Of a stretch of 64,000 nucleotides of DNA, positions 22,292 through 40,686 are shown piece by piece. The notes beneath the pieces were generated by a model that made no database searches, was not told the origin of the DNA, and saw nothing but the letters and a program-made list of their open reading frames with translations. Position 1 is the stretch's first letter. Each line of letters starts with the position of its first letter. The position numbers were made by a program, and so were the translations under genes. The stretch spans positions 331,957-395,956 of the forward strand of contig CP058896.1 in NCBI GenBank assembly GCA_013415865.1. Reading direction: 5' to 3'. The stretch comes from Methanomassiliicoccales archaeon (lineage in GTDB: Archaea > Thermoplasmatota > Thermoplasmata > Methanomassiliicoccales > UBA472).

Positions 22292-23086
22292 TCATTCCCT
22301 TTGCCGGATATGGTCCATCAGGGCCTTTAGGAGCCCCTCGAAGGTCGCATCCTTCGGCATGACGTCGACGTCTATGCCCATCGATTCCAGCGTCCTCTTC
22401 GTTGGCTCCCCTATCGCACCTATGATGGCGGCGTTCAGCGATGTCCCGAACTCCCTGACGCCATATTTCCGCTCGCCCTCCTCGATGAACGCCTTTGCGG
22501 ACATGGAGCTTGTGAAGGCAAAGGCATCAATGCCTCCATGCACAGTGAAATAGTACATGTCCAGCAGCGCACGGTCCGGTTCGGACCTCCTCAACGCATA
22601 CACAGGTACCTCCTCGACCTTCGCCCCCATCGCCTCCAGCCCTTTCCTTATGACATCGGAGCCTTGGTCCGACCTGATGACCCAGACCGTCTCGTCCTTC
22701 GAGACCTTTCCCTCAAGCAGTCTCACCAGGCCATCGGAGGTGAACTTCTCCGGCACGGCCTCGACCTTGAGCCATTTGGCCTTGGCGGCATCTGCCGTGA
22801 CGGGCCCGATGGCTATCACACCTCTTCTGTTCAACAAGGTGAAGACGGACGTGGCCTTCCCCCTTTTCTCCAAGAGCTTGAACATGTACTTCACTGCGGT
22901 AGAGCTTGTGACCATGACCCTGCCCACCCTCCCCGCCTCGAGCTCTTCTACGAACCGCCAGAAGGCAGGTGTGTCAAGCTCCTCCAGCTCCAGGGGAGAT
23001 GCGAACATCACCTCGAAGCCCATCTCCCTAGCCATCGCGACCGATTCCTCGGCCTTGTCCTTGGTCCTCATTATAGCAAGCTTCAT
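22292..23086 (-). CDS. hemD: uroporphyrinogen-III synthase
   Basis: HemD inverts ring D and closes hydroxymethylbilane to uroporphyrinogen III. The sequence is weakly conserved, as usual for this family, but has the two-domain layout and VMVTSSTAVKYMF, VIAIGPVTADAAK and FAFTSSMSAKAFIEE motifs. The ATG at 23086 overlaps the cobA stop by four bases and has GGGGGA upstream; eight upstream in-frame residues are dropped. It is last of the minus-strand operon. Confidence 0.88.
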   Translation of the reverse strand: MKLAIMRTKDKAEESVAMAREMGFEVMFASPLELEELDTPAFWRFVEELEAGRVGRVMVTSSTAVKYMFKLLEKRGKATSVFTLLNRRGVIAIGPVTADAAKAKWLKVEAVPEKFTSDGLVRLLEGKVSKDETVWVIRSDQGSDVIRKGLEAMGAKVEEVPVYALRRSEPDRALLDMYYFTVHGGIDAFAFTSSMSAKAFIEEGERKYGVREFGTSLNAAIIGAIGEPTKRTLESMGIDVDVMPKDATFEGLLKALMDHIRQRE

Positions 23087-23841
23087 GAAAGGTCCCCCAA
23101 GGTCTTCCACAGCGATGCGACCCCCCCGACCACCACTACCGCGGGGGCACCGACCCCGAGGCTCTTACATCTCTGTGCTATGGTGGCGACATCGGCGGAC
23201 ACCATCCTCTGTTCCGGTGTGCTCCCTTTCTCGATCACAGACACTGGCGTTGTAGGGTCCATCCCTCCCTCGATGAGGCGGGACATGTTCTTTTCCAGAT
23301 TTGACATGCCCATCATGATGACTATCGTACCGCCGAGCCTTGCGAGCAAAGAATAATCGATGACCTCCTCATCCTTGTGCAGGCCCTCGTGCCCGGTCAT
23401 TATCGTCACCATCGACGCATGGTCCCTGTGAGTGAGGGGTATCCCCGCCAGCCCAGGCACGGCGATGGAGGAAGTGACGCCAGGGACCAGATGAACCCTG
23501 ATCCCATGCCTGACCAGCTCCTCGGCCTCCTCACCTCCCCTGCCGAATAGGAATGGATCACCTCCCTTGAGACGGACCACCATTTTTCCTTCCAAGGCCT
23601 TCTCGATCAGCAACCTGTTGATATCTGGCTGTTCGGCCTTGTGATGGGCGCCCCTCTTTCCAACGTCGATGACCTCGGCGTCCTCCCTCGCAGCTTCCAG
23701 TAGCTCCATCCCTATGAGCGAATCGTGCACTATCACGTCCGCCTTTGTTATGAGCTCCCGGCCCCTGACCGTGATCAGGCCGGGGTCGCCTGGGCCCGCG
23801 CCCACCAGGTAGACCTCTCCTGTCCTTTCGCAAGATCTCAT
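23083..23841 (-). CDS. cobA: uroporphyrinogen-III C-methyltransferase (SUMT)
   Basis: This enzyme methylates uroporphyrinogen III at C2 and C7 to make precorrin-2, the common precursor of cobalamin and F430. Diagnostic motifs are VYLVGAGPGDPGLITVRG, VVRLKGGDPFLFGRGGEEAE and VPGVTSSIAVPGLAGIPLTHRD. The ATG at 23841 overlaps hemC by four bases. It is about 252 residues. Confidence 0.96.
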   Translation of the reverse strand: MRSCERTGEVYLVGAGPGDPGLITVRGRELITKADVIVHDSLIGMELLEAAREDAEVIDVGKRGAHHKAEQPDINRLLIEKALEGKMVVRLKGGDPFLFGRGGEEAEELVRHGIRVHLVPGVTSSIAVPGLAGIPLTHRDHASMVTIMTGHEGLHKDEEVIDYSLLARLGGTIVIMMGMSNLEKNMSRLIEGGMDPTTPVSVIEKGSTPEQRMVSADVATIAQRCKSLGVGAPAVVVVGGVASLWKTLGDLS

Positions 23842-24719
23842 CTGATGTCCTCCCAACCCATCATCATCTCCTTCACAAACCTGTCTAGCCCGACCTTCAG
23901 GTTCTCCACGTCCAGGTGCCTGTCGAGCCTGAACGCCCTTGAACCGTCCTCAGCGAGCACGATGCCCCTCATGCGCAGAGCGTCGAGCTCCTTCACGGCC
24001 CATATCCCGATGGGGACCGAGCATCCGCCGCCCATTCCGGACAGCACATATCTTTCCGCCTCCACGCAGAGCCTTGTCTCAGTGTCATTGAGCGCTGACA
24101 GGGTCTCAAAATGCTTCGAGCCGTTTGCACAACTTATAGCGATGGCGCCCTGTCCCACTGCCGGTATGAAGATCGTGGGGTCCAGGACAAAGGCCTCACA
24201 ATCGACCTCCAATCGTTCGAGCCCGGCCTTGGCCAGGACTATCGCGTCAAATTTTCCCTCTCTCAACCTGGACAGCCTGGTCGTGACATTGCCGCGGAGG
24301 TCTTTGATGACGAGGTCCGGCCTGACGTTGAGCAACATCGCCCTTCTCCTCACGCTAGAGGTACCGACGACGGCCCCTCTGGGAAGCTCTTCCAATGGGC
24401 GTTTTGAGATGATGACGTCCTCCACCGGCCCCCTAGGGAGCACTGCGGCGATCCTTGTTCCCTCGGTACAGACCACCGGCATGTCCTTGAGCGAATTGAC
24501 GCTGGCATCGATCTCGCCTGACAGGATCCTGTCATCCAGCTCTTTTACGAAGGCCCCGAACCCTCCCAGCGACCTCAATGGTCTGTCCCGCACCCTGTCG
24601 CCCGTGGTCGATATGAGCCTTACCTCGATCTGCAGGTCTGGAAATTTTTTTCCGAGCTTCGAGGTGACGATCTCTGTCTGAGAGACCGCCAACCTGGACC
24701 CCCTCGTCCCGATGATCAT
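23838..24719 (-). CDS. hemC: hydroxymethylbilane synthase (porphobilinogen deaminase)
   Basis: HemC polymerises four porphobilinogens. The dipyrromethane cofactor cysteine is C233 in GGGCSVPIG. GTRGSRLAVSQTE at the N-terminus and HSLKDMP-equivalent VNSLKDMP (71-81 region, Asn where His is common) are seen, with GTSSVRRRA and DLRGNVTTR. The length of 293 residues is normal. It overlaps hemL and cobA by four bases each. Confidence 0.96.
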   Translation of the reverse strand: MIIGTRGSRLAVSQTEIVTSKLGKKFPDLQIEVRLISTTGDRVRDRPLRSLGGFGAFVKELDDRILSGEIDASVNSLKDMPVVCTEGTRIAAVLPRGPVEDVIISKRPLEELPRGAVVGTSSVRRRAMLLNVRPDLVIKDLRGNVTTRLSRLREGKFDAIVLAKAGLERLEVDCEAFVLDPTIFIPAVGQGAIAISCANGSKHFETLSALNDTETRLCVEAERYVLSGMGGGCSVPIGIWAVKELDALRMRGIVLAEDGSRAFRLDRHLDVENLKVGLDRFVKEMMMGWEDIR

Positions 24720-25993
24720 CGGAATACCTCGCTGAGCGCCTCTGCGAAGCCATCAAGGGTACGGTCGATGACCTCCGCCGTGTGCGCTGTGGAAAGGAAG
24801 TTCGTCTCGTATTGCGACGGCGGAAGGTAGATGCCCTTTTCCAGAAGGTGGTCGAACATCTTCTTGAACAACGACGGGTCACACCTTTTCGCATCGGCAT
24901 AATCATTGACCTCCTGTTCCGTGAAGAAGATCTGGAACATCGAACCGATGCCGACGACCTGGAAACCGAGATGAAGCTCGTCCAGGATGGACCTCAGGCC
25001 ATTTCTCATCCTCTCTCCCTGATGGGACAGTCCATCGTGTCCTTCCTTTTCCAGGACCGATATTGTCTCGATGCCGGCAGTAAGGCTGAGAGGGTTGCCT
25101 GAGAAGGTGCCTGCCTGATAGACCTTGCCCAATGGCGAGACGCTCGACATGATCTCGGACGATGCCCCGAAGGCCCCGAAGGGAAGCCCCCCACCTGCGA
25201 TCTTGCCTAGGACCGTGATGTCCGGTCTTACGTTGAAGTACTGCTGCGCCCCACCCATCGCAAGGCGGAAACCTGTGATCACCTCGTCGAATATCAGAAG
25301 GACGTCATGCTGCGATGTCAGCTCCCTCAGCTCCTGAAGATACCCATCTTTCGGAAGGATCGGGCCGGCATTCCCGATCACGGGCTCCAATATCATTGCC
25401 GCGACCTCGCCCTTGTTCTCGAGGAGAGTCCTTCTCACAGCCCTGATGTCATTGTAGGGGACCAGCAATGTGTTCCTCGTCACCTCATCAGGGATCCCTA
25501 GCGAGTCAGGGGCGCAGTGCGTGGTGGCGCCTGACCCCGCTCTCACGAGCACGGGGTCGTGGGCGCCATGAAAGGCCCCCTCGACCTTAATCAACTTTTT
25601 TCTGCCAGTGTGACCCCTTGCCAGGCGTATCGCGTGCATGGTGGCCTCGGTACCGGAGCTGACGAACCGCATCATCTCCATGGATGGGTAGTGACGATGC
25701 AGCAACCTTGCCATATGAAGCTCCTTCTCTACCGGTGCGCCGTAGAGCGTCCCGAGGTCCAGCTGGGCCCTGAGGGCATCGACGACCTCCTTTCTGGCAT
25801 GACCTAGTATGAGGGGGCCGAAGCCCATGCAATAATCTATGTACTCATTCCCATCCACATCGTAGATCATTGGGCCTTTACCGGCCTTTATGTACAGGGG
25901 ATAGGGGCCATAAGCCCTCACGGGGCTGGAAACCCCGCCTGGTAGGTATCTCTTGGCCTCGGAATATAACGCAGCCGACCCTTCCGACCTCAT
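24716..25993 (-). CDS. hemL: glutamate-1-semialdehyde 2,1-aminomutase
   Basis: HemL makes 5-aminolevulinate from glutamate semialdehyde. This class III PLP enzyme has the PLP lysine K264 in [37 protein letters not shown] and [10 protein letters not shown]. The ATG at 25993 overlaps the hemB stop. The size is about 425 residues. The downstream genes use its product in order. Confidence 0.97.
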
Positions 25994-26952
25994 CCTTCGC
26001 CCTCCAGGAGCCACCTGGCCGCATCTTTGGCATGGTAGGTTATGATCATATCTGCTCCAGCCCTCCTTATCGAGGTCAACGTCTCCATGACGACCCTTTT
26101 CTCATCGATCCAGCCTTTGGCGGAAGCGGCTTTTACCATCGAGTATTCCCCGCTCACGTTGTAGGCCGCGATCGGGACGTCGAACCTATTCCTCGCCATA
26201 GCTATGATATCCAGATATGCAAGGGCCGGCTTGACCATCAATATGTCCGCCCCCTCGGACAGGTCGAGCTCCATCTCTCTCATGGCCTCGCGTGCGTTGC
26301 CTGGGTCCATCTGATGGGTCCGCCTGTCCCCGAACTTAGGGGCGCTCTCCGCGGCATCTCTGAAGGGGCCATAATAGGCAGAGGCGTACTTGGCAGAATA
26401 GGCCATTATCGGCACCATATCGAGGCCGGCCTCGTCCAGGCCCTCCCTGATCGCCTTAACCTGCCCGTCCATCATACCGGACGGGGCGACCATGTCAGCG
26501 CCGGCCTCCGCCTGGGAGATCGCCGTCAGGGCATATAGGTCATTGGTGGCGTCGTTGTCCACATTTCCGGACCTCAGCACCCCGCAATGGCCATGGGAGG
26601 TGTACTCACATAAGCAAAGATCGGTGATGACGATGAGGCCGGGGACCTCCGCCTTGATCTCTCTCACCGCCCTTTGCACTACGCCCTGCTCGTCAAAGGC
26701 CGCGCTCCCCCTCTCGTCCTTTACCTTTGGGATCCCGAAAAGGAGGACGGCAGGTATCCCGAGGTCGTGAGCCGACCTGGCCTCCCCTGCTATGAGCGAT
26801 AGGGGGTGCGCCATCACCCCTGGCATCGAGGTGATCGCCCTAGGCTTTTTTACATTCTCGTCGACGAACAGCGGATAGATGAGGTCGTCTGCGGCTAGGG
26901 CCGTCTCTGAGACCATCCTTCTCAGTCCTTGCTGTCCCCTAAGCCTTCTCAT
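25990..26952 (-). CDS. hemB: porphobilinogen synthase (delta-aminolevulinate dehydratase)
   Basis: HemB condenses two aminolevulinates. A metal site with three cysteines ([13 protein letters not shown]) indicates a zinc enzyme. The two active-site lysines lie in [18 protein letters not shown] and [10 protein letters not shown]. The start at 26952 (MRRLRG) is preferred; an ATG six codons upstream (26970) is also open. It overlaps the end of hemA by about 14 bases. Confidence 0.96.
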
Positions 26953-28231
26953 CCTGCTCTGCGGGTACATCTCCTTCCTCCTCCTTGAGCTCGAACATCT
27001 GTCTGGCTGCTTCGAAGAAACGGTCGTCCCCGTTCCTGGCCGCGGCCTTGAGGGACTCGGTCGGGCAGGCCAGGAACCTCCCCATCAGCGCGGTCCCGAA
27101 TTCCTCCATCACCTTCTCGATCGGGTCCTGACCGCATTTGGCCCTTGCTATCGCCTTACGGACCTCCTTGTCCTTGATGGACGAATACTTGCCGAACATC
27201 ATCTTCACTATCCTTGAGGCCTCCATCTCGTCCAGCTTCCTGTCAAGAAGTGCCAGCTCCTCGATGATGATCCGCTCGGCCTTCTTCATCTCCTCCCTGC
27301 GCCTGAGGATGTTCGCCTCGGAGACGCCCCGGAGGCCGTCAATATCATACAGTTCAACGCCTTCCAGATCGCGGACGTCCAAGGAAACGTTCCTAGGGAA
27401 GGAGACGTCGATTATCAGCATCCTCTTGTCGGCCCGGGCCTCCATGGCCTTCTTTATATGCCGGCTCTCAAGGATCATATGCGTCGCGGACGTCGCGCAA
27501 AGGACGACGTCCGCCTGGGCAAGGAACTCGTGCAGGAAGTCAAACTTGACCGCCTTACCGTTCAACACCCAGGCCAGCTCGACCGCCCTGGCATAGGTCC
27601 TGTTCGATACGAAGACCGCCTCCGGCGATTTGCCCACCAGGTGCTTGGCTATCAATGTGGCCATCTCGCCCGCCCCTATCACAAGGACCTTCTTTCCGGA
27701 CAGGGTGCCCAGCTTCTCCTCCGCCAGCTCGACCGCCGCGGAGCCTATGGAGACGCATCCTTTGTTGACCTTCGTCTCGGTCCTTACCTTCTTCCCAACG
27801 CTGATGGCCTTCCTGAACACCACCGAAAGGACCGGACCTATGTGGCCGGCCCTCTCCGCATGCTCGAACGCCTCTTTCACCTGGGACTGGATCTGGTCCT
27901 CACCTATTATCATCGACTCCAGCCCTGACGACACCCTGAGGAGGTGGCGGACGGAGTCCGACCCTGTGAGGAACTGCACCAGGTTCTGGTCTGAATCGAA
28001 GGGGATGAAGGAGGAGACCATCGCCTCCATGGCCTTCCTCGTCTTCTCCCAATCTTTCGTCGCCACATACATCTCGACGCGGTTGCAGGTCTTGAGCACA
28101 ACGCATTCAGTGACCCCATCCAGCTTGCTCAATGTCAAAAGAAGGTGGTCAACATTCTGCGACCCGATCAGTTCAAGCTTACCTATGTCGACCTGCTTGT
28201 GGGTGATGTGCACGCTAAGGATCTTGTCCAT
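26939..28231 (-). CDS. hemA: glutamyl-tRNA reductase
   Basis: HemA reduces glutamyl-tRNA to glutamate semialdehyde, the committed step. The catalytic C49 sits in [10 protein letters not shown]. The NADPH domain has [16 protein letters not shown], followed by the helical dimerisation domain. The length of 430 residues is standard. The stop is TAG. It overlaps sirC by 17 bases. Confidence 0.97.
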
Positions 28232-28847
28232 CCCCTTTCACCATCCTCCTTCTTGCGGCCGTCATGGCCTTCTTCATCTCCCCCTCCCTCACGAGCTGCC
28301 ATATCCTCTCGTCCTTCAGGACATCCCATAGCAGCTGTTCTCTCCTCTTCTGGTCGGGGATGAGCCGTTTGGCCTCCTCCCTCAGTGTCTCCTGCAGGAG
28401 GACCATCCTGCCATGCTCAGGTCCAAGCTCCTCATCCAGGAGGGTCCGGAGATATTTGGCCATCGCCGGGCTCCTTCCAAAGGTCGATATGGCGACCGTA
28501 TAACCGTCCCTCTCGACGACCGAGGGGATCAAGAAGTTCGACCTGCCGTCTGAACAATTATACAGTTTCCCGGTTGCGACGGCCTGGTTCACGATCGCGC
28601 TGTTCACCGCATCGTCATCTGTGCACGCGATGACGACATCGGCCCAGCCGACCCATTCCACAAGTCGTTCGAGGGCGTCCTCTTCCACGATCTGGACCTC
28701 AGAGGTATCGAACCCTTCGCAAAAATGACGGCTCACCACCACGACGTCGGCCTCTTTTGCAAAGAACCTCGCCTTCCTGAGGCCTACCTGACCTCCCCCG
28801 AAGACGACTACCTTTCGTAATCTCATATCTATGAAGAGCGGCAACAT
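28215..28847 (-). CDS. sirC: precorrin-2 dehydrogenase (sirohydrochlorin synthase)
   Basis: This enzyme oxidises precorrin-2 to sirohydrochlorin. The core starts MLPLFIDMRLRKVVVFGGGQVGLRKARFF, the CysG-N/Met8p NAD-binding pattern, followed by DVVIACTDDDAVNS and IPSVVERDGYTVAISTFGRSP. An in-frame ATG at 28922 could add 25 residues and lies just after the predicted transcription start; the ORF-open ATG at 28950-28952 lies inside the operator and is unlikely. First gene of the sirC-hem operon; TAG stop. Confidence 0.9.
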   Translation of the reverse strand: MLPLFIDMRLRKVVVFGGGQVGLRKARFFAKEADVVVVSRHFCEGFDTSEVQIVEEDALERLVEWVGWADVVIACTDDDAVNSAIVNQAVATGKLYNCSDGRSNFLIPSVVERDGYTVAISTFGRSPAMAKYLRTLLDEELGPEHGRMVLLQETLREEAKRLIPDQKRREQLLWDVLKDERIWQLVREGEMKKAMTAARRRMVKGDGQDP

Positions 28848-28939
28848 GCTATGAACGCCCCTAGGCGATGGCCTTCTCACTATGTGAAATATGCGGGATA
28901 GATAGGAGGCGGTATCATCCATGTTAGTATTTAATTTAG

Positions 28940-28956
28940 TTGGATTATACATCCAA
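28940..28956. promoter_or_regulatory. tetrapyrrole operator, copy 1
   Basis: TTGGATTATACATCCAA is an inverted repeat (TTGGAT/ATCCAA, 5-bp spacer), identical to the copy at 28974. It lies between the shared TATA element and the predicted start of the minus-strand sirC-hem transcript. Confidence 0.75.
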
Positions 28957-28958
28957 TA

Positions 28959-28970
28959 GATATAAATAAA
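28959..28970. promoter_or_regulatory. shared TATA element between the sirC-hem and cbi operons
   Basis: GATATAAATAAA is the only strong TATA-like element between the two divergent operons and can be read in both directions. It is centred between two identical 17-bp palindromes. From it, plus-strand transcription would start near 28988 and minus-strand near 28938. Confidence 0.55.
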
Positions 28971-28973
28971 AAA

Positions 28974-28990
28974 TTGGATTATACATCCAA
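28974..28990. promoter_or_regulatory. tetrapyrrole operator, copy 2
   Basis: This is the second exact copy of TTGGATTATACATCCAA, 34 bp from the first. It covers the predicted transcription start of cbiT (ATG 29000). Flanking bases extend one half-site to ATCCAACT, mirrored by AGTTGGAT at copy 1. Confidence 0.75.
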
Positions 28991-28999
28991 CTAGTTCGT

Positions 29000-29524
29000 A
29001 TGAAAGTGAGCGGGGGACCTACTCAGGATGAAGTAATGGCCGTTTCCCTCTTCAAGCTGGGGCTGAAGAAGGGGGACAGGATCGTCGATGTCGGCTGCGG
29101 TACGGGAAAGGTCTCGGTCCATGCTGCGAGGACCTGTGAAAAGGTGTTCGCCGTCGACAACCGCGATGAGGCCATAACGGCCACCAGAGCAAATGTCATA
29201 GAGAGCGGATCGGACAACGTCGAGGTGATCAAGGGTCATGCGAAAGACGTGATCCCCTCCCTTGGTGCACTTGACGGGGCATTTGTAGGAGGGTCGAAGG
29301 ACCTTGAGCTTGTCCTTGAGGCATTGGTCCGCAATGTCAAAGGGAGGGTCGTCATGAACGCTGTGATGGTGAGCACGCTCAGCAGGGCGATCGATGCGAT
29401 GAAGGAGCTCGAAATCTTTGAAGAGGTGGTCCAGGTCAGCGTTGCGAGGTCCCATGAGATCGGCGGGTCGGTGATGTTCAGGCCGATAGACCCTGTTTTT
29501 GTGATAGTCGGAAAGGTGAGATGA
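29000..29524 (+). CDS. cbiT: cobalt-precorrin-6B C15-methyltransferase (decarboxylating)
   Basis: CbiT methylates C15 and removes the C12 acetate carboxyl. Motifs are SGGPTQDEVMA at the N-terminus and the SAM loop IVDVGCGTGKVSVHAA, then AVDNRDEA. It has 174 residues. It is the first gene of the cbi operon, about 10 nt after the operator, and overlaps cbiL by four bases. Confidence 0.94.
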   Translation: MKVSGGPTQDEVMAVSLFKLGLKKGDRIVDVGCGTGKVSVHAARTCEKVFAVDNRDEAITATRANVIESGSDNVEVIKGHAKDVIPSLGALDGAFVGGSKDLELVLEALVRNVKGRVVMNAVMVSTLSRAIDAMKELEIFEEVVQVSVARSHEIGGSVMFRPIDPVFVIVGKVR

Positions 29525-30129
29525 TGCTGGTGGCGTTGGGGCTTGGGCCCGGGGACAGCGAGCTGATAACGGTCAGGGGCGCTAGATTGTTGAGAACGGC
29601 CGACAAGGTGTTCGTCCCTGGTGAGATTGCCAGAAGGATAGTGCTCCCCTATGTCGACCCTGAGCTTTTGGACTTCCCGATGACCAATGATGAGGATGCG
29701 ATAACCAAGGCCATGGAGCGCAACTCCGACAGGATAGCAAAGTACGCCCTTAACGGGACGGCCGTGCTCGGGATCCTTGGCGACCCGAGCTTCTTTTCCA
29801 CATATGGCAGGCTCTATACCATTTTGAAGCAAAGGTATCCCTCCATCGAGTGCACGGTCGAACCTGGAATAAGCTCGATAACGGCCTTTGCAGCGAAGAT
29901 GGGCGTGGCCGTAAACTCTGGGCTGGAGGTGTCAGATGGCTCGGAGAAGGCGTGCAGGGTGCTGTTGAAGGTGAGAAGACCGAGGGAGACGGTCGAAAAG
30001 CTCAGGAAGGAGGGTTTCAAGGAATTCGTCCTCGCCGAGAGGATGTATATGGATGGTGAAAAGATCTACGGTGAGTCCGATATGCCAGAGGTATGTGATT
30101 ATATGTCGGTCCTATTTGCGAGGCGGTGA
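29521..30129 (+). CDS. cbiL: cobalt-precorrin-2 C20-methyltransferase
   Basis: This precorrin methylase starts LVALGLGPGDSELITVRGARLL. LDFPMTNDED, LGDPSFFSTYGRLYTIL and VEPGISSITAFAAKMGVAV match CbiL rather than the other methylases of the family. At 202 residues it is slightly short. CbiL acts first in the anaerobic corrin branch after cobalt insertion. Confidence 0.85.
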   Translation: MMLVALGLGPGDSELITVRGARLLRTADKVFVPGEIARRIVLPYVDPELLDFPMTNDEDAITKAMERNSDRIAKYALNGTAVLGILGDPSFFSTYGRLYTILKQRYPSIECTVEPGISSITAFAAKMGVAVNSGLEVSDGSEKACRVLLKVRRPRETVEKLRKEGFKEFVLAERMYMDGEKIYGESDMPEVCDYMSVLFARR

Positions 30130-30845
30130 CCGTGCCAAGGGTCCATTTCGTCGGAGCTGGCCCGGGCGATCCCGACCTCATTACACTGAAAGGCAACGAC
30201 CTGCTCGTCAACGCAGATGTTCTGGTCTATGCCGGCTCCCTGGTCAATCCTGAGCTTGTAAGAAGGTCAAGGGCATCGGTCAAATTGGACAGCTGGGGGA
30301 TGTCGATCGAGGAGATGGTGCCACTCATGGCCAATGCCGCCAAGGAAGGAAAGCTGGTCGTAAGGCTCCATTCTGGCGACCCATCTATCTATGGTTCGAT
30401 AGTCGAGCAGATCGCGGAGCTTCAGAAGCTCGGGGTCGATGTGGAGGTCGTGCCAGGCGTCAGCTCGATGTTCGCGGCGGCGGCCGCGCTGAAGACGCAG
30501 TACACCCTGAAGGGCGTCTCGGAGTCGTTGATAGTCACCAGACCGGCCGGTGACACCCTGGACAAGGACGACATAGCCGCATTTTCGAAGATGGGGGCGT
30601 CCATGGTCATCTTCCTGGGGACGGACAAGCTCCCTGAGATCGTAGAAAAGCTGGAATGTCCTAGGGAGACGCCAGCGGCGGTCATCTATCATGCCTCATG
30701 GCCAGACCAGGTCATCGTCAAAGGATGTGTCGGCGATATAGCGGAGAAGGCGATGAGGGCGGGCATAACCCGGTCCGCGCTCATTTTGATCGGAGGCATA
30801 GTCGACCCGATGGAAAGGTACGAGAGGTCGGTGCTGTACTCATGA
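30126..30845 (+). CDS. cbiF: cobalt-precorrin-4 C11-methyltransferase
   Basis: CbiF is recognised from VHFVGAGPGDPDLITLKG, VYAGSLVNPELV, RLHSGDPSIYGSIVEQ, VPGVSSMFAAAAALKTQYTLKGVSES and TRPAGDT. The start is GTG 30126 or GTG 30132 two codons on. cbiG begins on its final bases. Confidence 0.95.
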   Translation: MTVPRVHFVGAGPGDPDLITLKGNDLLVNADVLVYAGSLVNPELVRRSRASVKLDSWGMSIEEMVPLMANAAKEGKLVVRLHSGDPSIYGSIVEQIAELQKLGVDVEVVPGVSSMFAAAAALKTQYTLKGVSESLIVTRPAGDTLDKDDIAAFSKMGASMVIFLGTDKLPEIVEKLECPRETPAAVIYHASWPDQVIVKGCVGDIAEKAMRAGITRSALILIGGIVDPMERYERSVLYS

Positions 30846-31708
30846 GAACGGCCGTCGTCCATATCAAAAGGCCTGAGGAGGCTGCCAAGGTCGCAAAGGT
30901 ATTGGACGCCGATGTGCTGGATTATTCTGAGGACGTTTTTGAGGAGATGTTCGATGAGCGCAAGGTGATCGTTGCCATCATGGCCTGCGGCATCGTGGTC
31001 CGCAAGATCTCCCCCTTGATGAAGGACAAATGGTCCGACCCCGCCGTGGTCGTGGTATCTCCAGACCTGCGCTTTGCCATCCCGATCGCAGGTGGCCATC
31101 ACGGAGGGAACGAGACCGCCAAGAAGCTAGCATCCATAGGAGTAGAGCCAGTAATCACGACGGCGACGGATGCGCTCGGAAAGGACTCGGTGGAGGATAT
31201 AGCGAGAAGGCATGGTGGCTCGGTGGTGAACACGTCCTCCACGGTCAAGGTCAACGCCTCTTTTCTGCAGGGCGATGTGCCCGTTTACAGGATCGCTGGA
31301 CCGTCGGTCGTCCTTATCGACGGTGGGGTCTCGGTCATCGCCGGTCATGGCGACCATGTCGTCGGCATAGGTTGTAACAGAGGTACAGATGCCGACGAGA
31401 TTGTCCAGGCGGTGGACGCATCCCTTTTATCGAAAGGACTTGGCAGGTCAGACGTGCTGGCGTATGCCACGACGGTAAAAAAGTACGACGAGAAGGGAAT
31501 TACCGATGCGGCGAGGACCTTGGGGGGGCCCTTGTTCTTCATCGATGACGATACCATCAACAGGCAGGATGTAGCGTCAAGGTCCAAGGCGGCCGCGATA
31601 GGCCTTATCGGTGTCGCCGAACCGGCAGCTCTGGCCCTTGCGAAAAGGAAGGAACTGATCTTGGAGAGGAGAGCTTATGGAAATGTCACGGTCGCGATCG
31701 CAAGATGA
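30842..31708 (+). CDS. cbiG: cobalt-precorrin-5A hydrolase
   Basis: CbiG opens the delta-lactone and releases acetaldehyde, the ring-contraction step of the anaerobic route. Key segments are VAIMACGIVVRKISPLMKDKWSDPAVVVV, PIAGGHHGGNETAK and the C-terminal VVGIGCNRGTDADEI. The ATG at 30842 overlaps the cbiF stop, giving 288 residues; further upstream in-frame sequence only shadows cbiF. Confidence 0.94.
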   Translation: MRTAVVHIKRPEEAAKVAKVLDADVLDYSEDVFEEMFDERKVIVAIMACGIVVRKISPLMKDKWSDPAVVVVSPDLRFAIPIAGGHHGGNETAKKLASIGVEPVITTATDALGKDSVEDIARRHGGSVVNTSSTVKVNASFLQGDVPVYRIAGPSVVLIDGGVSVIAGHGDHVVGIGCNRGTDADEIVQAVDASLLSKGLGRSDVLAYATTVKKYDEKGITDAARTLGGPLFFIDDDTINRQDVASRSKAAAIGLIGVAEPAALALAKRKELILERRAYGNVTVAIAR

Positions 31709-32471
31709 GGGCGCGTCATTGTATATAGTCAGCACCGGCCCAGGAGACATGGCGAACCTTACGCCCATGGCCAGGGAGGCCATAGAGTCGGCAGAGGTCA
31801 TCATAGGGAACAGGATGTACCTGGACCAGATGTCCTCCCTTCTCAATGATAAGGTGGTCATAAGCTCTGCCATGGGAAAAGAGGTCGAAAGGGCAAAACA
31901 GGCCGTCCGTCTGGCAAAGGAGAAAAAGGTCGCGATGCTCAGCGGCGGGGACGCCGGCGTGTACGGGATGGCGAGCATAATCCTTGAGGTTGCCGAGAGC
32001 GAGTGCCCCGGTCTCAAGGTAAAGGTCGTCCCGGGCGTGACCGCGGCGACCGCGGCGGCATCCCTCATGGGGTCGCCGCTGTCAGGGGACTTCGTCGTGA
32101 TCTCGCTCTCTGACCTGCTGACCCCCCATGACGTGATGATGAGGCGGGCCGACCTCGCATTCCAGATGGGAGTGCCTGTGGCCATCTATAACCCAAAGAG
32201 CAGGAACCGGCCAGATAATCTTCGGGAGGCGTTGACGCTCGCAATACGTCATGCAGGGCCAGACCGTCCTGTGGGCATAGTCAGGAATGCTTACAGAGAG
32301 GGACAAAGCGTCACCTATACCACGCTCGGTCGTCTATTGGAGGACGATAGCGCCGTCGACATGCATTCGATCGTCATCGTGGGCGGGGAGGGGACGAGGA
32401 TGATCAAGGAGGGAGACCATGTCAAAGGATTCATCACGCCAAGGGGCTACCACAGAAAGTACGTATATTGA
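31677..32471 (+). CDS. cbiH: cobalt-factor III (precorrin-3B) C17-methyltransferase
   Basis: CbiH methylates C17 with ring contraction. Motifs: LYIVSTGPGDMANLTPMAREAI, IIGNRMYLDQM, AMLSGGDAGVYGMASI, VVPGVTAATAAASLMG and ISLSDLLTP. The ATG at 31677 follows GGAGAG; an ATG two codons later is equivalent. It overlaps the end of cbiG by 32 bases and is itself overlapped 53 bases by cbiC. Confidence 0.94.
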   Translation: MEMSRSRSQDEGASLYIVSTGPGDMANLTPMAREAIESAEVIIGNRMYLDQMSSLLNDKVVISSAMGKEVERAKQAVRLAKEKKVAMLSGGDAGVYGMASIILEVAESECPGLKVKVVPGVTAATAAASLMGSPLSGDFVVISLSDLLTPHDVMMRRADLAFQMGVPVAIYNPKSRNRPDNLREALTLAIRHAGPDRPVGIVRNAYREGQSVTYTTLGRLLEDDSAVDMHSIVIVGGEGTRMIKEGDHVKGFITPRGYHRKYVY

Positions 32472-33084
32472 TCTGGGTGCGGACACGGCAGAAGGCTACA
32501 GCATTTCGAGCAGGAGCAGGGCCTTGGCGAGAAGGACCATTGGGGATTCGACGCCTGAGGACAGGATCAGGCAGAGGTGCTCGGTCGCGGTTGGGGATTT
32601 TTCAATGGCCGAACTTCTGAGGTTCGAGAACGGTCCGGTCTCAGCGGGCATCGACGCCCTTGAGCGCGGAGCGGTAATATATGCCGACATCCGCATGGTA
32701 CAGGTAGGGATCCAGAAAAAAGGTCATTCCTCCAGGGTGGATTGCCTGTTGGACCATGGAGGGGAGATCTCCTTAAGAACAGGGATGACGAGGACGAGCG
32801 CAGGCATGCTTGCTTTGAGGGACAAGCTGGATGGTTCCATAATCGTGGTTGGCAACGCCCCTTCCTGCCTGTTGAGCCTGTGCGAGATCATCGATTCGGG
32901 GACGGTCCCCGGCCTGGTGGTCGGTTGTCCTGTCGGGTTCGTTAACGCGGCGGAATCGAAAGAGGAGCTGAGAAGGAGGAAGGTCCCATCGATCTCCACC
33001 TTTGGGACTAGGGGCGGGACCCCGGTCGCCGTCGCGGCGATGAACGAGATCATCACGATGTACGCAGAGCGGAGAATGACATGA
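32419..33084 (+). CDS. cbiC: precorrin-8X methylmutase CbiC, catalytic His replaced
   Basis: CbiC moves the methyl from C11 to C12 to form cobyrinate. The 221-residue sequence matches along its length (SRALARRTIG, DFSMAELLRFENGPVSAG, GAVIYADIRMVQVGI, VGNAPSCLL, VGCPVGFVNAAESKEEL). In the segment where other CbiC/CobH proteins read R-x-I-H-x-x-x-D, this one reads R-C-S-V-A-V-G-D, so V56 stands in for the catalytic histidine. AGGAGGGA before ATG 32419 supports the start despite the 53-base overlap with cbiH. Confidence 0.88.
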   Translation: MSKDSSRQGATTESTYIDLGADTAEGYSISSRSRALARRTIGDSTPEDRIRQRCSVAVGDFSMAELLRFENGPVSAGIDALERGAVIYADIRMVQVGIQKKGHSSRVDCLLDHGGEISLRTGMTRTSAGMLALRDKLDGSIIVVGNAPSCLLSLCEIIDSGTVPGLVVGCPVGFVNAAESKEELRRRKVPSISTFGTRGGTPVAVAAMNEIITMYAERRMT

Positions 33085-34085
33085 AGGACCCGGTATCAGG
33101 ATTCGAATATCCAGAGGAATGGGTGTCGAGATGCAAGGACGATGAGGCCCTGGCAGATGTGAAAAGAGGGCTTGCGGTCCTTCTCTCCGATGGCTCGGTC
33201 AAGCTGCGAGGGTTCACCACAGGAACGACCGCGGCGGCGGCGTGCAAGGCCGCTGTCCTGTCGACGACGAAGGATGTTGACATGGTAGATGTGAAGCTCG
33301 CCTGTTCTTTGAGGTTCGAGGTCCCGGCCATAGGCTGGAAAGGGACGGGTATTTGCGCAAAGTTCCCCGGAGATTATCCTGAAGACGCAACGGCCAATCT
33401 GTTGTTCAGGGCGAGGTTCGAAGGGCCTTCAAATGAGGTGATGCTAGAGACAGGGACCGGCATCGGACGGTGGGACCGGGACACCCCTCGCTTCAAGAAA
33501 GGGGAACCAGCTATAAGTCATTCGGCGAGGACCTGCATCATCAACGCCATCTCAGAGGCCTGCGAGGCCATCGGAATGCGAGGGGCAAAGGTCCACCTCG
33601 AGGTGCCGGAGGGAGAGGTCAGGGCCGAAAGGACCCTGAACCCTAGGATGGGCATCATCGGTGGGATATCGGTGCTCGGCTCGACCGGCCTGGTCGAGCC
33701 TTGGGACGACCACCTTGGCCAGGATGCCATGGCAAGGGTCGCTCAAGGGGGGGACGTCGTGATCACCACAGGACGGGTCGGTCTCAGGTTCGCGAGGATG
33801 GCCTTTCCAGGTTCAGAGGTGGTGCTGGTGGGGGCCAACATCTCCGAGGCGTTCGCCGCCGCATCGGGTCGCCTGACCTTGTACGGCCTCCCCGCGCTCA
33901 TCATGAAGTTCATAGAACCAGATGTCCTTGAGGGCACGGGTTTTATGACCGTTGAGGAGCTGGTCTGCTCCGAGAGGGGGCATGTGGCCATCCGCAAGGC
34001 GCTTGCAAGGTTCAAGGAGGTGCATCCAGGCCACAGGGTGGTCATCATCGACAGGGATGGAAGGGTTATGGGGGACAGCGGATGA
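33081..34085 (+). CDS. cbiD: cobalt-precorrin-5B C1-methyltransferase
   Basis: CbiD methylates C1 in the anaerobic pathway. The signature LRGFTTGTTAAAACKAAV is followed by GTGIGRW, PAISHSARTCIINAI, NPRMGIIGGISVLGSTG and VLVGANISEAFAAAS. The 334-residue length is normal. It overlaps cbiC and cbiE by four bases each. Confidence 0.95.
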   Translation: MKDPVSGFEYPEEWVSRCKDDEALADVKRGLAVLLSDGSVKLRGFTTGTTAAAACKAAVLSTTKDVDMVDVKLACSLRFEVPAIGWKGTGICAKFPGDYPEDATANLLFRARFEGPSNEVMLETGTGIGRWDRDTPRFKKGEPAISHSARTCIINAISEACEAIGMRGAKVHLEVPEGEVRAERTLNPRMGIIGGISVLGSTGLVEPWDDHLGQDAMARVAQGGDVVITTGRVGLRFARMAFPGSEVVLVGANISEAFAAASGRLTLYGLPALIMKFIEPDVLEGTGFMTVEELVCSERGHVAIRKALARFKEVHPGHRVVIIDRDGRVMGDSG

Positions 34086-34663
34086 TCGTCGTAGGTGTTG
34101 GTTGTGGTCCTGGTATGATGACCGAGGAGGCGGTCGCTAGGATAAAGGCCGCGAAAAATGTCTACGGCTCCCGAAGGGCGATAGAGATCGCATCCACATA
34201 CATCCCTTCAGACTGTGAGGTGCACCCTGTGACGGACTTCTCCGACCTTTCAGGTCTCCCGGAGGATTCGGTGGTCCTTTCCACCGGAGATCCGATGCTG
34301 GCAGGTCTTGGCCACCTAGGCCTCGAGGTCGTGCCAGGGATTTCCTCATTACAGTTGGCATTCTCGAGGCTGAAGCTCCCCTTGACAAGGGCGGTCGTGA
34401 TCGATGCCCATGGCGATAAGGACATGGACGTCTCGGATGAAGTGATGAAGGAGATGAGCAAGGGGAGGATCGCCTTCATCCTGACCTCTCCTGATTTCAA
34501 GGTGGACAAGCTCGCATCTGACCTGATGCTCTTTGGAGCGGACTGCGAGATCGCGATATGCGAGGACCTCGGTTATCCTAGCGAGTGCATCTCTGTCGGT
34601 ACCCCTTCCCGTCCGCCCGTCCCCGGTTCGGGCCTCTTCTCGGTCGTAGTGGTAAAGGTGTGA
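34082..34663 (+). CDS. cbiE: cobalt-precorrin-7 C5-methyltransferase
   Basis: A short precorrin methylase (193 residues) starting MIVVGVGCGPGMMTEEAVARI, with LSTGDPMLAGLGHLG, VPGISSLQLAFSRLKLP and IDAHGDKD, matching CbiE. CbiT, its usual partner or fusion domain, is a separate gene at the operon head. It overlaps cbiD by four bases. Confidence 0.92.
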   Translation: MIVVGVGCGPGMMTEEAVARIKAAKNVYGSRRAIEIASTYIPSDCEVHPVTDFSDLSGLPEDSVVLSTGDPMLAGLGHLGLEVVPGISSLQLAFSRLKLPLTRAVVIDAHGDKDMDVSDEVMKEMSKGRIAFILTSPDFKVDKLASDLMLFGADCEIAICEDLGYPSECISVGTPSRPPVPGSGLFSVVVVKV

Positions 34664-34666
34664 GCA

Positions 34667-36013
34667 ATGAGGCCAAGGGTGATGATCGCAGGGGAAAGGA
34701 GCGGGGTCGGGAAGACGACCGTGACCCTCGGTCTCCTCGCGGCGCTCAAGGCCAGAGGTCTCGAAGTGCAGCCATTCAAGGTCGGCCCCGACTTCCTAGA
34801 CCCGATGCACCATGACATGGTGTGCTCTCGAAGGTCGAGGAACCTCGATACCTGGATGTTCCCTTCTTATGTCATGAGCTCTTTCCTACGGGCCTCAAAA
34901 GGCGCGGACATCTCGGTCATCGAGGGGGTGATGGGGTTCTATGATGGATACGATGGCATCTCGGAGGAGGGCAGCAGCGCACACCTGTCAAAGCTCCTCT
35001 CCTGCCCTGTGGTGCTGGTGCTCAACGCCTCATCATCGGCCAGGAGCCTTGGTGCCGTGGCGATGGGCTTCAAAGAGTATGACAAGGATGTCGAGATCGC
35101 CGGGGTCGTCTTCAACAATGTGGGCGGCCGTAGACATCTTTCGATGTTGGAATCTTCATTGAGGGGGGTCGAGTGCCTTGGAGGACTTCCTAAGGCCAAG
35201 GACATCGGGCTGGAGAGCAGGCACCTGGGCCTCATACCTGCCAGGGAGGGGGACAATTCTCCTGCCTACGAGGGCATGAGAGCATTGGTCGAGGAGCATC
35301 TGGATGTCAAAAGGATCATTGAGATAGCGAGGTCCGCAAAGAACATCGAAGATGTGGTAGATGACATGCCGTCAGGACTGAAGAGATGCAGGATCGGCGT
35401 AGCGTTGGATGCAGCGTTCAACTTCTATTACGTGGATAATTTTGAGATACTTCGGTCGTTGGGGGCGGAGATCATCGAGTTCTCACCTTTGGCGGATGAG
35501 CTTCCGGATGTGGACGGCCTTTATTTCGGGGGAGGATATCCCGAGGTCTTCGCTCAGGGTCTTTCCTCCAACCTTAGGATGATGGCCGGAGTGAGGAGGG
35601 CCGCTGATGATGGGATGCCGATATATGCCGAATGCGGTGGCCTTATGTACATGTGCTCATCCCTGAGGGACCTGCATGGACGTACCTACAAGATGACGGG
35701 CATCTTTGATGCCGAGGTGGAGATGACAGAAAGGCTCCAGGCGCTCGGATACGTGAGGGCTAGGACATTGAGGCCCAACCTGCTCTCAGACCCGGGTGAA
35801 GAGCTCAGGGGGCATGTGTTCCACTACTCCAGGGTGACCAGGGTGGAGGGCGAGATGAGCTACGAGCTGGACAAGGACAAGGGGATCGTCGGGGGGCTCG
35901 ACGGGCTGTGCCATGAGAACATCCTTGCTTCATACCTTCACCTCCATTTTGGTTCGGCGCCCAAGGCTGCGAGAAGGTTCGTTGAAAGATGCGTTGAGCA
36001 CTCAAGACGATGA
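34667..36013 (+). CDS. cbiA: cobyrinate a,c-diamide synthase
   Basis: CbiA amidates the a and c side chains of cobyrinate with glutamine and ATP. P-loop GERSGVGKTTVTLG is at the N-terminus, FKVGPDFLDPMHH follows, and the C-terminal amidotransferase domain has GGGYPEVFA and the nucleophile in YAECGGLMYM. It has 448 residues. It is paralogous to CfbB at 40.7 kb. Assignment to the corrin rather than F430 branch rests on operon context. Last gene of the cbi operon. Confidence 0.92.
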   Translation: MRPRVMIAGERSGVGKTTVTLGLLAALKARGLEVQPFKVGPDFLDPMHHDMVCSRRSRNLDTWMFPSYVMSSFLRASKGADISVIEGVMGFYDGYDGISEEGSSAHLSKLLSCPVVLVLNASSSARSLGAVAMGFKEYDKDVEIAGVVFNNVGGRRHLSMLESSLRGVECLGGLPKAKDIGLESRHLGLIPAREGDNSPAYEGMRALVEEHLDVKRIIEIARSAKNIEDVVDDMPSGLKRCRIGVALDAAFNFYYVDNFEILRSLGAEIIEFSPLADELPDVDGLYFGGGYPEVFAQGLSSNLRMMAGVRRAADDGMPIYAECGGLMYMCSSLRDLHGRTYKMTGIFDAEVEMTERLQALGYVRARTLRPNLLSDPGEELRGHVFHYSRVTRVEGEMSYELDKDKGIVGGLDGLCHENILASYLHLHFGSAPKAARRFVERCVEHSRR

Positions 36014-37122: not shown

Positions 37123-37521
37123 ATGACAAAAGGAGTGCTAGTGGTAGGGCATGGGAGCAAGCTGCAGTTCAACAGGGACCTGGTTGTGCACATGGCCGAC
37201 GTCCTGGACCGTAGGAAGGAGTTCGGACCGGTGACAGCCGCCTTCATGCAGCTGAACGAGCCGACGATCAAGCAGGGCATAGAGAAGCTCGTAAGGATGG
37301 GGGTGGACGAGATCTACGTGCAACCGTGCTTCCTGGCATCAGGGATACATCTCACTGAGGACATCCCTGGGGAACTAGGGTTCAAGAAAGGGGATACAGC
37401 GGGTTCGATGGTGGTCGAAGGGAAGACCATCCAACTGAAGTATTGCGGACCGATCGGCGCAGATGACAGGATAGCAGATATCCTGGCCGACCGTATCAGA
37501 GAAAGGGTCAAGAAGGGTTGA
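37123..37521 (+). CDS. cfbA: sirohydrochlorin nickel/cobalt chelatase
   Basis: CfbA (CbiX-S) inserts nickel into sirohydrochlorin for F430 and can insert cobalt for cobalamin. The 132-residue short form has metal-binding H10 (VVGHGS) and H76 (ASGIHLTEDIP). TAGGTGG lies nine bases before the ATG, and TTTTATTT near 37071 is a TATA candidate. It heads the cfb operon and overlaps cfbE by four bases. No second chelatase is in the window. Confidence 0.95.
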   Translation: MTKGVLVVGHGSKLQFNRDLVVHMADVLDRRKEFGPVTAAFMQLNEPTIKQGIEKLVRMGVDEIYVQPCFLASGIHLTEDIPGELGFKKGDTAGSMVVEGKTIQLKYCGPIGADDRIADILADRIRERVKKG

Positions 37522-38816
37522 ACTTGAAAGTGTTGGTCCTCGACCAGACCCACGGCGGAGACAGGATCGGCCGGGAGCACAGGAGGCTCGGCCATGATGT
37601 CACTCTGGTGGACGTATACGGCACGATGAGCGCCGAGGAGAGGCGGGCGCTCAGGGACGAGGGGATCAGATGCGAGGTCAGGGCACCTCCAGAAAAGTTC
37701 GACCTGGCCATAGTACCCGTGCATTGTCCTGATAGGTTCCTGGCCGATGCCAGGTACGATGAGAGGATAACCCATCATGAGGCGGTAGGACGCCTGGTCA
37801 GGTTCAAGATGCCGGTCATCGAGGTGACGGGGGTCAGCGGCAAGACCTCGGCATGCCACATCATTGCGCATATGCTTTCCATGACAGGAAGGACCGTGCT
37901 GCTGCACACATCCCGCGGGGATCTACGCCTAAAAGGAGACAAGATAGAGGTAATAAAAGAGAAGACGAGCATCGCCCCCGCCTCGCTCATCGAACTTGCG
38001 GGTCTGGAAGGGTTCGATGTCGCAGTGCTGGAGGAAAGTCTAGGCGGTTGCGGCATCGGCGATGTATGTTGCATAACGAACCTGAACGATGACTATGGCA
38101 TCGCGGGCGGCACGAGGAAGGCCCTCGACGGCAAGGTCCAAATGGTCCGACTTGCGAAGAAGAAGGTCGTTTTCCCCGAGAGGGAGAGGGACCTTTGGTC
38201 CCCATATCTTCCAGAAGGGGTCGAGGACACCACCTTTGGGAGCGAGGGGGATGTCCATGTCGAGTTCGGCAGGGAACTTCAGCTGGGAGTGCCGCTGGAG
38301 TTGAGGGTCTTCGATGGTGGCTCAGTATACTCTGTCAGCCTTTCCAGCATGTTCTTGGCACCTGCATATACGAATGCTTTCGAGACATCTCTGGCCGCCA
38401 TGAAGGCCTTGGGGATCGACATGGAGGCCACCGTCAGGTCCCTCAGCTCGTTCAAGGGCGTACCTGGGAGGGGGGAGATAGAGCGAGAAGGCATGTGGTA
38501 CATGGTCCGCGAGAGGAATCCGGGGGTCGGGGCCAGGAGCATCGGCTGGAACATCTCGATACTTGAGGACCTGTACGGGATCTCGGACATAGGGCTCGTC
38601 ATCGACCCGGTCAATGCAAAGGTATGCGAGAAATTGGACATGCATGCGGTCCTGCGTGTTGTGGCCGAGAAACATTCGGTAAAGAAGGTCTATCTCTTCG
38701 AGAGAAGGTGTGGTGAGGGCAGACGATGGCCGGACCTAGAGAGGATCAAGAACGCCTATGAGGTCTGGGGGAAGCACAAGGTGGTTCTATGGTGCACCAA
38801 GGAGGGGTTCCTTTGA
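37518..38816 (+). CDS. cfbE: coenzyme F430 synthetase (Mur ligase-like)
   Basis: CfbE forms the cyclohexanone ring of F430 from 15,17(3)-seco-F430-17(3)-acid using ATP. It is a Mur-ligase relative with P-loop VTGVSGKTSACH (about residues 94-105), the central EESLGGCGIGDVCCITNLNDDY segment and a C-terminal ligase domain. The start is TTG 37518, in the cfbA stop. Identification rests on the Mur-like fold plus position among cfbA, D, C and B. Confidence 0.92.
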   Translation: MNLKVLVLDQTHGGDRIGREHRRLGHDVTLVDVYGTMSAEERRALRDEGIRCEVRAPPEKFDLAIVPVHCPDRFLADARYDERITHHEAVGRLVRFKMPVIEVTGVSGKTSACHIIAHMLSMTGRTVLLHTSRGDLRLKGDKIEVIKEKTSIAPASLIELAGLEGFDVAVLEESLGGCGIGDVCCITNLNDDYGIAGGTRKALDGKVQMVRLAKKKVVFPERERDLWSPYLPEGVEDTTFGSEGDVHVEFGRELQLGVPLELRVFDGGSVYSVSLSSMFLAPAYTNAFETSLAAMKALGIDMEATVRSLSSFKGVPGRGEIEREGMWYMVRERNPGVGARSIGWNISILEDLYGISDIGLVIDPVNAKVCEKLDMHAVLRVVAEKHSVKKVYLFERRCGEGRRWPDLERIKNAYEVWGKHKVVLWCTKEGFL

Positions 38817-39898
38817 ACGACATCCTGCACCCAAGGCCGAACCCGATAATAGCGGCGATGTACACCCTCCGTGACCTTGATGTGGACGTCATAATCATGC
38901 ATGGCCCTGCTGGCTGCGGCTTCATGGCCTCCAGGAGACTTGAGGAGGCGGGCGTGAGGGTCATCACGACCGGCATGCAGGAGAACGATCTGATCTTCGG
39001 GGCGGAGGACAAGCTCGCGAGGATACTCAAGAAGGTCGAGGAGGACTTCAGGCCCAAGCTCGTCGGTATCGTCGGCACCTGTGCCAGCATGATAATCGGA
39101 GAGAACCTCGACGGCGCGATAAAAAAGGCAGGGCTCAGAGCGAAGGTCATCCCCGTCGATACGCATGGATGTTCCGGACCTAATACCAGCGGGGCGATAA
39201 GGACGCTCGAGGTCGCGGCCGAGAGAGGCATCATCTCCAATGAGGAGTTCCTCAGACAGAAGGAGATGTTGGTCAGGGCCACCCTCATCGAAAAGGACAG
39301 GGGGATCACCTCCAAACAATACCTTGAACCTCATCCAGGCGTGACAAAGCTGACGGTCGCCCTCAGGATCGTCGATGCGCTGAGGCAGGGCAAGCGGGTC
39401 GCGGTGGTGCTCAACGCAAAGAAGGAGACCGCCTATGGCTTCGCTGACATCATGAGGGCCATGGAGGAGGCAAGGTCGAAGTTAGGTGGGGAGGTCGTCC
39501 ACATAGGAAACCTTGATCCGGATGTCGGACTGCCAAGGATCAGACGTTACGCCAGGAACATACTGAGGGACCTGGAGGCCGCCAATGTCAAGGTCGTGGA
39601 GCTGACCGGAGGCCTGGACGAGTACCCCGTGGCGGCCGAAAAGGCCTCGATGCTCCTACAGCAGGGCGGATATGACCTGAGGATAATCGCTGGCCTTCCT
39701 CACCATCTTACTGGTCTCCGGAAGGACGATGTGCTCGTGACCGACCAGCCCAGAGAGCTCAGGAACTACATACAGAACGGTTTCGAGCTGTCGGTCGGCG
39801 AGGTCACCACGCATGCGGACGTGATGAGGACGGACAAGGTCATCAGGAACGAGCTGGGGAACACCATCAGGGAGGTAGCGGAGAAGGGATACCGATGA
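38813..39898 (+). CDS. cfbD: Ni-sirohydrochlorin a,c-diamide reductive cyclase, catalytic subunit
   Basis: CfbD, a NifD-like protein, performs the six-electron reduction and lactam-ring formation in F430 synthesis. Nitrogenase-like segments include MHGPAGCGFMASRR, GIVGTCASMIIGENL and PVDTHGCSGPNTSGA. TTG 38813 is favoured: AAGGAGGGG lies four bases before it and it overlaps the cfbE stop as TTGA. An ATG at 38789 would add eight residues. Followed by its reductase cfbC. This is not a nitrogenase. Confidence 0.94.
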   Translation: MNDILHPRPNPIIAAMYTLRDLDVDVIIMHGPAGCGFMASRRLEEAGVRVITTGMQENDLIFGAEDKLARILKKVEEDFRPKLVGIVGTCASMIIGENLDGAIKKAGLRAKVIPVDTHGCSGPNTSGAIRTLEVAAERGIISNEEFLRQKEMLVRATLIEKDRGITSKQYLEPHPGVTKLTVALRIVDALRQGKRVAVVLNAKKETAYGFADIMRAMEEARSKLGGEVVHIGNLDPDVGLPRIRRYARNILRDLEAANVKVVELTGGLDEYPVAAEKASMLLQQGGYDLRIIAGLPHHLTGLRKDDVLVTDQPRELRNYIQNGFELSVGEVTTHADVMRTDKVIRNELGNTIREVAEKGYR

Positions 39899-40686
39899 GA
39901 CAGATCGCAATATACGGAAAGGGAGGGATCGGGAAGAGCACGATATCTGCGAACCTCGCGGCCTGCTTCGCCGAGATGGGCAAACGGACGTGGTATATTG
40001 GATGCGACCCAAAGGCCGACGGCTCGATGACGCTGCTGGGAGGAAGGAAGGTGCCTACGTTCCTCGAACAGATGAAGGACGGCCTTCGGCCAAAGGACTA
40101 CGAGGTCTCAGTGGGCTATAAGGGCGTCAGATGCATAGAGGTCGGCGGACCAATGGCTGGGGTAGGGTGCGCTGGAAGGGGGATAATCGTTGCAGTGCAG
40201 GCCCTTTCGAGGGACCACTTCAATGAGGAGATCGATGTCATCATCTACGATGTTCCTGGGGATGTCGTGTGCGGGGGCTTTGCCGTACCTCTCAGAGAGA
40301 AGTACGCCAATGAGGTCTACATCGTCACCTCGGGAGAGTACTTGGCCATGTATGCGGCCAATAACATCGCAAGGGGCCTTAACAACCTTGGCGTCAACCT
40401 TGGCGGGCTGATCTGCAATTCAAGAGAGGTCTTGAAGGAAAGGGAGGCGGTAGAGGCCTTCGCGTCACATATTGGTTCAAGGATGATCGGTTTCATCCCC
40501 AGGGACCCTATGGTCAGGGTCTGCGAGAACAAGGGAAGGACGGTCATTGAGTGCGAGCCCTACAGTGCCCAGGCCGAAGAGTATCGCAGACTGTCCAGGG
40601 CGGTCTGGGAAAATGACAGGTTCTCTGTCCCGAGCCCGATGGACCCGGAATCCCTCAGGCAGCTCCTCAGGGAGGTCTCAGGATGA
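39895..40686 (+). CDS. cfbC: Ni-sirohydrochlorin a,c-diamide reductive cyclase, reductase (NifH-like)
   Basis: CfbC delivers electrons to CfbD with ATP hydrolysis. NifH features are intact: P-loop GKGGIGKST (8-16), 4Fe-4S ligands C92 (GVGCAGRG) and C126 (GDVVCGGF), and switch DPKADGSM. The length of 263 residues is normal. It overlaps cfbD and cfbB by four bases each. Confidence 0.95.
   Translation: MRQIAIYGKGGIGKSTISANLAACFAEMGKRTWYIGCDPKADGSMTLLGGRKVPTFLEQMKDGLRPKDYEVSVGYKGVRCIEVGGPMAGVGCAGRGIIVAVQALSRDHFNEEIDVIIYDVPGDVVCGGFAVPLREKYANEVYIVTSGEYLAMYAANNIARGLNNLGVNLGGLICNSREVLKEREAVEAFASHIGSRMIGFIPRDPMVRVCENKGRTVIECEPYSAQAEEYRRLSRAVWENDRFSVPSPMDPESLRQLLREVSG

Follow-up and report, generated by a model that had tools for sequence, protein, structure and literature searches.

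How are the heme-trunk and corrin operons controlled that diverge from one short gap in the window, i.e., the whole stretch of 64,000 nucleotides analysed from a Methanomassiliicoccales archaeon? The sequence-only reading had proposed that two identical palindromes around one bidirectional TATA element could let a single regulator shut both operons symmetrically, in place of a B12 riboswitch.

The palindrome pair of the window

The heme-trunk operon on the minus strand begins with sirC, of which the longest frame (28215..28952) starts inside the first palindrome copy. The true start is probably near 28847, as the relatives start at MLPL. Downstream of sirC lie genes which, by their sequence, we take to be hemA, hemB, hemL, hemC, sumT/cobA, and hemD (22292..28231, minus strand). 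The corrin operon on the plus strand begins with cbiT (29000..29524, start codon at 29000), followed by a run of presumed cbiL, cbiF, cbiG, cbiH, cbiC, cbiD, cbiE, and cbiA (29521..36013). After the cbi run, presumed look-alikes of the coenzyme F430 synthesis genes cfbA, cfbE, cfbD, and cfbC were placed at 37123-40686.

Two exact copies of the 17-mer TTGGATTATACATCCAA, as had been claimed, were located in the gap, 34 bp apart from start to start and without strand assignment. Copy 1 (28940..28956) lies between a TATA-like stretch and sirC, and copy 2 (28974..28990) between the same stretch and the start of cbiT. The bracketed stretch, TAGATATAAATAAAAAA (28957..28973), is AT-rich and TATA-like on both strands, i.e., ATATAAATAA on the plus strand and TTATTTATAT on the minus strand. 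The 6-bp arms, TTGGAT and ATCCAA, are a perfect inverted match, and the 5-bp spacer TATAC has no self-complementarity. Therefore, the palindrome is interrupted in each copy, and the two copies lie in the same orientation. Among 100 dinucleotide-shuffled versions of the window, none contained two matches at up to three mismatches. The Rfam covariance search of the window gave no match at the gathering score for any family, the cobalamin riboswitch included, in agreement with the earlier reading.

Sites and target genes across the order

The pattern TTGGATN5ATCCAA, searched with a free spacer, was found at nine exact places at seven loci in the window's genome (G000, a single contig of 1,818,080 bases), and the reversed pattern at none. 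This genome scan had been proposed together with the window pair. Apart from that pair, between sirC-hem (-) and cbiT-cbi (+), sites were found before cobT, before cbiP, before a run of btuF-btuC-btuD-cobD-cbiB-cbiZ-like-cobS-cobY, and 538 bp before mtaC-mtaB. One more separates the operon of a beta-propeller/DUF4430 ECF-type transporter from a double-Lrp regulator gene. The last two, 26 bp from each other, stand as a pair ahead of a Zn-alcohol-dehydrogenase gene and a TrpD-like gene. Pathway genes that are not linked to one another thus share the site, as expected of a corrinoid transcriptional regulon. The mtaC gene (L021:3379-4158) is split by an in-frame TAG, and it is possibly read through with pyrrolysine or possibly broken.

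In 41 genomes of the order Methanomassiliicoccales, 160 sites were counted against one for the reversed control, and the site is present in 36 of these genomes. Target counts cover the 111 sites that were fetched and read; the other 49 belong to G003, G012, G013, G015-G021, G032, G036, and G039, with two of G038. Four of the 111 (L144, L150, L157, and L194) are anticodon arms of tRNA-Ser or tRNA-Glu. The arms of tRNA-Ser(gct) and tRNA-Glu match the palindrome by chance and make a trap for motif scans. They lend something to the idea that the window copies are a chance repeat, a tRNA arm, or a mobile repeat. However, the window copies are part of a promoter, the targets are conserved, and such an origin is refuted by the order-wide excess and by the conservation of the pair at the cbiT promoter; we give it a vanishingly small probability. 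The claim that the repeat is not chance was therefore borne out.

After removal of the four tRNA arms, 107 sites were classified. Corrinoid synthesis or uptake genes follow 60 of them, Zn-alcohol-dehydrogenase family genes 12, a radical SAM protein gene 4, and other labelled genes 11. Two precede corrinoid-using enzymes, i.e., one corrinoid protein and one ribonucleotide reductase with a TSCPD tail, and 18 had no recognised target. Grouped into 98 clusters, the sites gave 56 core clusters and 18 without target. The reference set for these labels also took in proteins encoded next to the sites, and the loci concerned are therefore matched against their own proteins; of the 60 core labels, 6 hinge on this extension (L176, L178, L180, L181, L207, and one site of L215). 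These six are divergent substrate-binding-protein-like genes labelled by hand. A Pfam match above the cut-off was obtained for L178 and L207, and L176 and L180 were labelled from the btuC/btuD genes next to them.

Several of the less expected targets deserve separate mention. The ribonucleotide reductase with the TSCPD domain (G022, L173:545-3043) has the site at its promoter and is probably of the B12-dependent class II. The Zn-alcohol-dehydrogenase carries the site in many genomes (L022:3507-5765 in G000, L136, L143, L148, L156, L163, L168, L201, and L212), and in G000 it is followed by a gene for a TrpD-like phosphoribosyltransferase (L022). In G029, a presumed cfbA gene has a site that is located beside sirC (L202:12112).

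The position of the sites was measured in 79 site-gene pairs. The distance from the end of the site to the start codon has a median of 23 bp (range 3 to 75). A TATA-like 8-mer, matched at 7 of 8 positions and starting between 36 and 8 bp ahead of the site, was found in 33 of the 79, against a mean of 8 and a maximum of 16 in 500 sets of shuffled upstreams. The placement of the window copies downstream of TATA, noted earlier, is thus shared by sites elsewhere in the order. At the most frequent distances, about 23-29 and 9 bp, the site would overlap the expected transcription start or immediately precede it. Archaeal repressors usually sit downstream of TATA, over the start. With a TATA-like element immediately 5' of the site and the start codon a short way behind it, TTGGATN5ATCCAA would be a transcriptional operator, most probably that of a repressor.

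The pair itself was followed in relatives through CbiT, which was found in 14 of the 41 genomes; six of these encode it by a stand-alone gene, with an identity of at least 46%. In all six, two palindromes bracket a TATA-like stretch, so that the expected conservation in relatives was found at this promoter as well. The spacing is 34 bp in G000, G029, and G032, 33 bp in G005 and G006, and 29 bp in G035, where it was counted by eye after the search pattern had missed that genome. In G000 and G005 neither copy departs from the motif; G006 and G029 have one degenerate copy, and G032 and G035 two. The sirC gene diverges from cbiT only in G000, G005, and G006 and is not next door in the other three. 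Because the pair is kept there without an adjacent sirC, the symmetry between the sirC and cbi operons is secondary. Judged from these arrangements, the pair would belong to the cbi promoter and be shared by the sirC operon where the two diverge. In the relatives without detected CbiT, sites remain at salvage and uptake genes.

The idea of a shared switch was thus right in kind, as a site common to corrinoid genes is repeated in G000 and kept in relatives; what did not stand is the symmetric control of sirC-hem and cbi as its purpose. By its sequence, the window pair is one instance of an order-wide putative corrinoid operator.

Candidate regulators

Two proteins with the DUF4443 domain (Pfam PF14544) were recognized, i.e., a short one of 194 aa, usually encoded after metK, and a long one with an added DUF2111 domain. 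The domain was matched at 6.1e-31 in the short copy and 5.9e-29 in the long copy. In G000, the short gene is located on the minus strand (G000:C1:123528-124082), after the archaeal SAM synthetase gene (metK), and the nearest named relatives of the G000 DUF4443 protein are Methanomassiliicoccales records, which agrees with a placement of the window in that order. We consider it likely that TTGGATN5ATCCAA is the corrinoid-regulon operator of Methanomassiliicoccales, with DUF4443-short as the most likely putative winged-helix repressor.

DUF4443 was found in 16 of 16 sampled order members versus 6 of 101 other members of the phylum, and the sites numbered 67 in the former and 24 in the latter, of which 6 carry tRNA-Ser arm sequence. 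The DUF4443-short gene borders a site in seven genomes. In six of the order (G005, G034, G037, G025, G028, and G031), the site lies between this gene and the beta-propeller/DUF4430/ECF transporter operon, drifted to TGGGAT in G025, G028, and G031. The seventh, G056, is outside the order; its only site has metK-DUF4443-short on one side and, on the other, a DUF4430-like gene with a membrane gene after it, and a random place would fall within 100 bp of the DUF4443-short gene with a chance of about 5 in 10,000. In G045, also outside the order, the single site is at a beta-propeller/DUF4430 gene.

The association is not complete. Outside the order, four of the six DUF4443 genomes showed no site at a corrinoid gene: G053 and G071 each have a single site, respectively a tRNA-Ser-like sequence and a position within a reading frame, and G049 and G058 (the latter with a weak DUF4443 match) have no site. 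In G000, DUF4443-short is beside none of the sites, and its own operon is not preceded by one. In G023, DUF4443-short and another gene converge on a perfect site (L124:4058) with no target seen; the site may be a relic of a lost transporter operon or the promoter of an unseen transcript. G036 has eight DUF4443 matches but only two sites, a local family expansion.

The operator may also be real and corrinoid-related but read by another factor, e.g., the XRE regulator encoded beside metK or the double-Lrp protein encoded beside the ECF site of G000. The XRE gene is a frequent neighbour of metK-DUF4443 and adjoins it in most of the loci read, and in G000, 46 bp separate a site from the start of the double-Lrp gene. 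However, of the loci read, only that of G000 has the double-Lrp gene next to a site, and its relatives (E<=1e-20) were found in 18 of the 41 genomes, half as many as carry sites; the double-Lrp regulator was rejected on these grounds. No paralogue of either factor was noticed with a sister palindrome at its promoter. Taken together, another reader, such as the XRE or double-Lrp protein, is unlikely.

The long paralogue has a palindrome of its own. Directly after its own TATA, an ATGGAT..ATCCAT-type palindrome was found in 27 of 30 loci, exact in 21 (L025:4622-5606 and L056-L082 are examples of the arrangement), and the gene apparently regulates itself. This sister palindrome, GATGGATN5ATCCATC, is rare elsewhere; in several f1 genomes, a second one is placed 7-9 kb away. 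The recognition helices of the two paralogues, GEGS(M/I)RTIL, are near-identical, as are the half-sites, so that both proteins might share the job and either read the site. Such sharing would explain the genomes in which only one type was found. G027 (99% complete, three sites) yielded only the long type, and G004 and G040, which are less complete, gave no DUF4443-short either. Conversely, G029 (11 sites) and G032 (10 sites) yielded only the short type, and the long protein as sole regulator was rejected for this reason. Neither paralogue alone covers every genome. However, the outer bases differ consistently, TTGGAT at corrinoid genes and GATGGAT at the promoter of the long gene, and we regard a shared job as rather improbable. 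In the preferred reading, the short protein would act on the corrinoid site, and the longer paralogue would read the sister site at its own promoter.

The fold of the protein is consistent with a regulator. The AlphaFold2 model of a DUF4443 protein had a mean pLDDT of 88.6 and matched PH0730 (2p8t) with a Z of 19.4 and an rmsd of 2.6 over 169 residues. The N-terminal half matches winged-helix regulators of the CggR-like type. The C-terminal half matches the insertion regions of bacterial AspRS (Z about 11), which we take to be the GAD domain. A middling Z in a fold search reveals no function.

Proposed mechanism and known systems

A dimeric winged-helix protein, most likely DUF4443-short, would bind the two half-sites, whose centres are 11 bp, i.e., one DNA turn, apart. 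Its binding at the transcription start or a little ahead of it would prevent initiation, probably under corrinoid sufficiency. Two such dimers would bracket the TATA box of the cbiT promoter. Cobalamin sensing is plausible. SAM comes into question as the ligand because of the metK linkage, and corrinoid by feedback logic.

The linkage to metK, found within 5 kb of DUF4443-short in 72 of 80 loci, also fits a protein that responds to SAM, or to cobalt, instead of corrinoid, or that activates instead of represses. We think this rather improbable. The sites occupy the usual place of archaeal repressors, and the targets span corrinoid synthesis, salvage, uptake, and use rather than SAM or cobalt genes alone. 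Repression in response to corrinoid is thus kept as the preferred reading.

Methanogenesis of methyl-using methanogens depends on corrinoid proteins, and the regulon spans synthesis, salvage, uptake, and use genes in such organisms. B12 sensing in archaea is largely open, and a precise operator, a regulon, and one candidate protein family are now combined. The Zn-alcohol-dehydrogenase with the TrpD-like enzyme, the radical SAM protein, and an APC-type permease are possible new corrinoid genes. The literature search found no function for DUF4443, only a family name in a table for PH0730, and no description of the TTGGATN5ATCCAA motif.

In many bacteria, the cobalamin riboswitch controls the B12 synthesis and uptake genes. 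The site described here differs from it as a DNA palindrome over a promoter, in a window without Rfam matches. According to the excerpted text of PMC3794607, riboswitches are found in few archaea, and TrmB acts on the cob/cbi genes of Halobacterium salinarum. TrmB is similar as a transcription factor on archaeal cobalamin genes. However, the same excerpt describes it as a sugar-nutrient regulator and an activator of cob/cbi (PMC3794607), and no TrmB-like gene was seen beside the sites read.

The closest likeness in protein is to the PH0730-like/DUF4443 family and the CggR-type winged helix, in fold and in recognition helix. In regulon, the likeness is to RegPrecise 'CblR', given in an excerpt of PMC10746257 as a predicted cobalamin regulon of Pyrococcus furiosus with its regulator listed as unknown. 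Both are predicted archaeal cobalamin regulons with a protein regulator, a likeness by description. Pyrococcus belongs to another phylum, but it has the DUF4443 relative PH0730. A tentative extension, to which we give somewhat less than even credence, is that the DUF4443/PH0730 proteins are corrinoid-responsive repressors of archaea, the missing B12 sensor where riboswitches are absent, and also stand behind the orphan Pyrococcus regulon. If so, the C-terminal domain, with its AspRS-insertion-related fold, would represent a novel type of sensor for corrinoid (or SAM).
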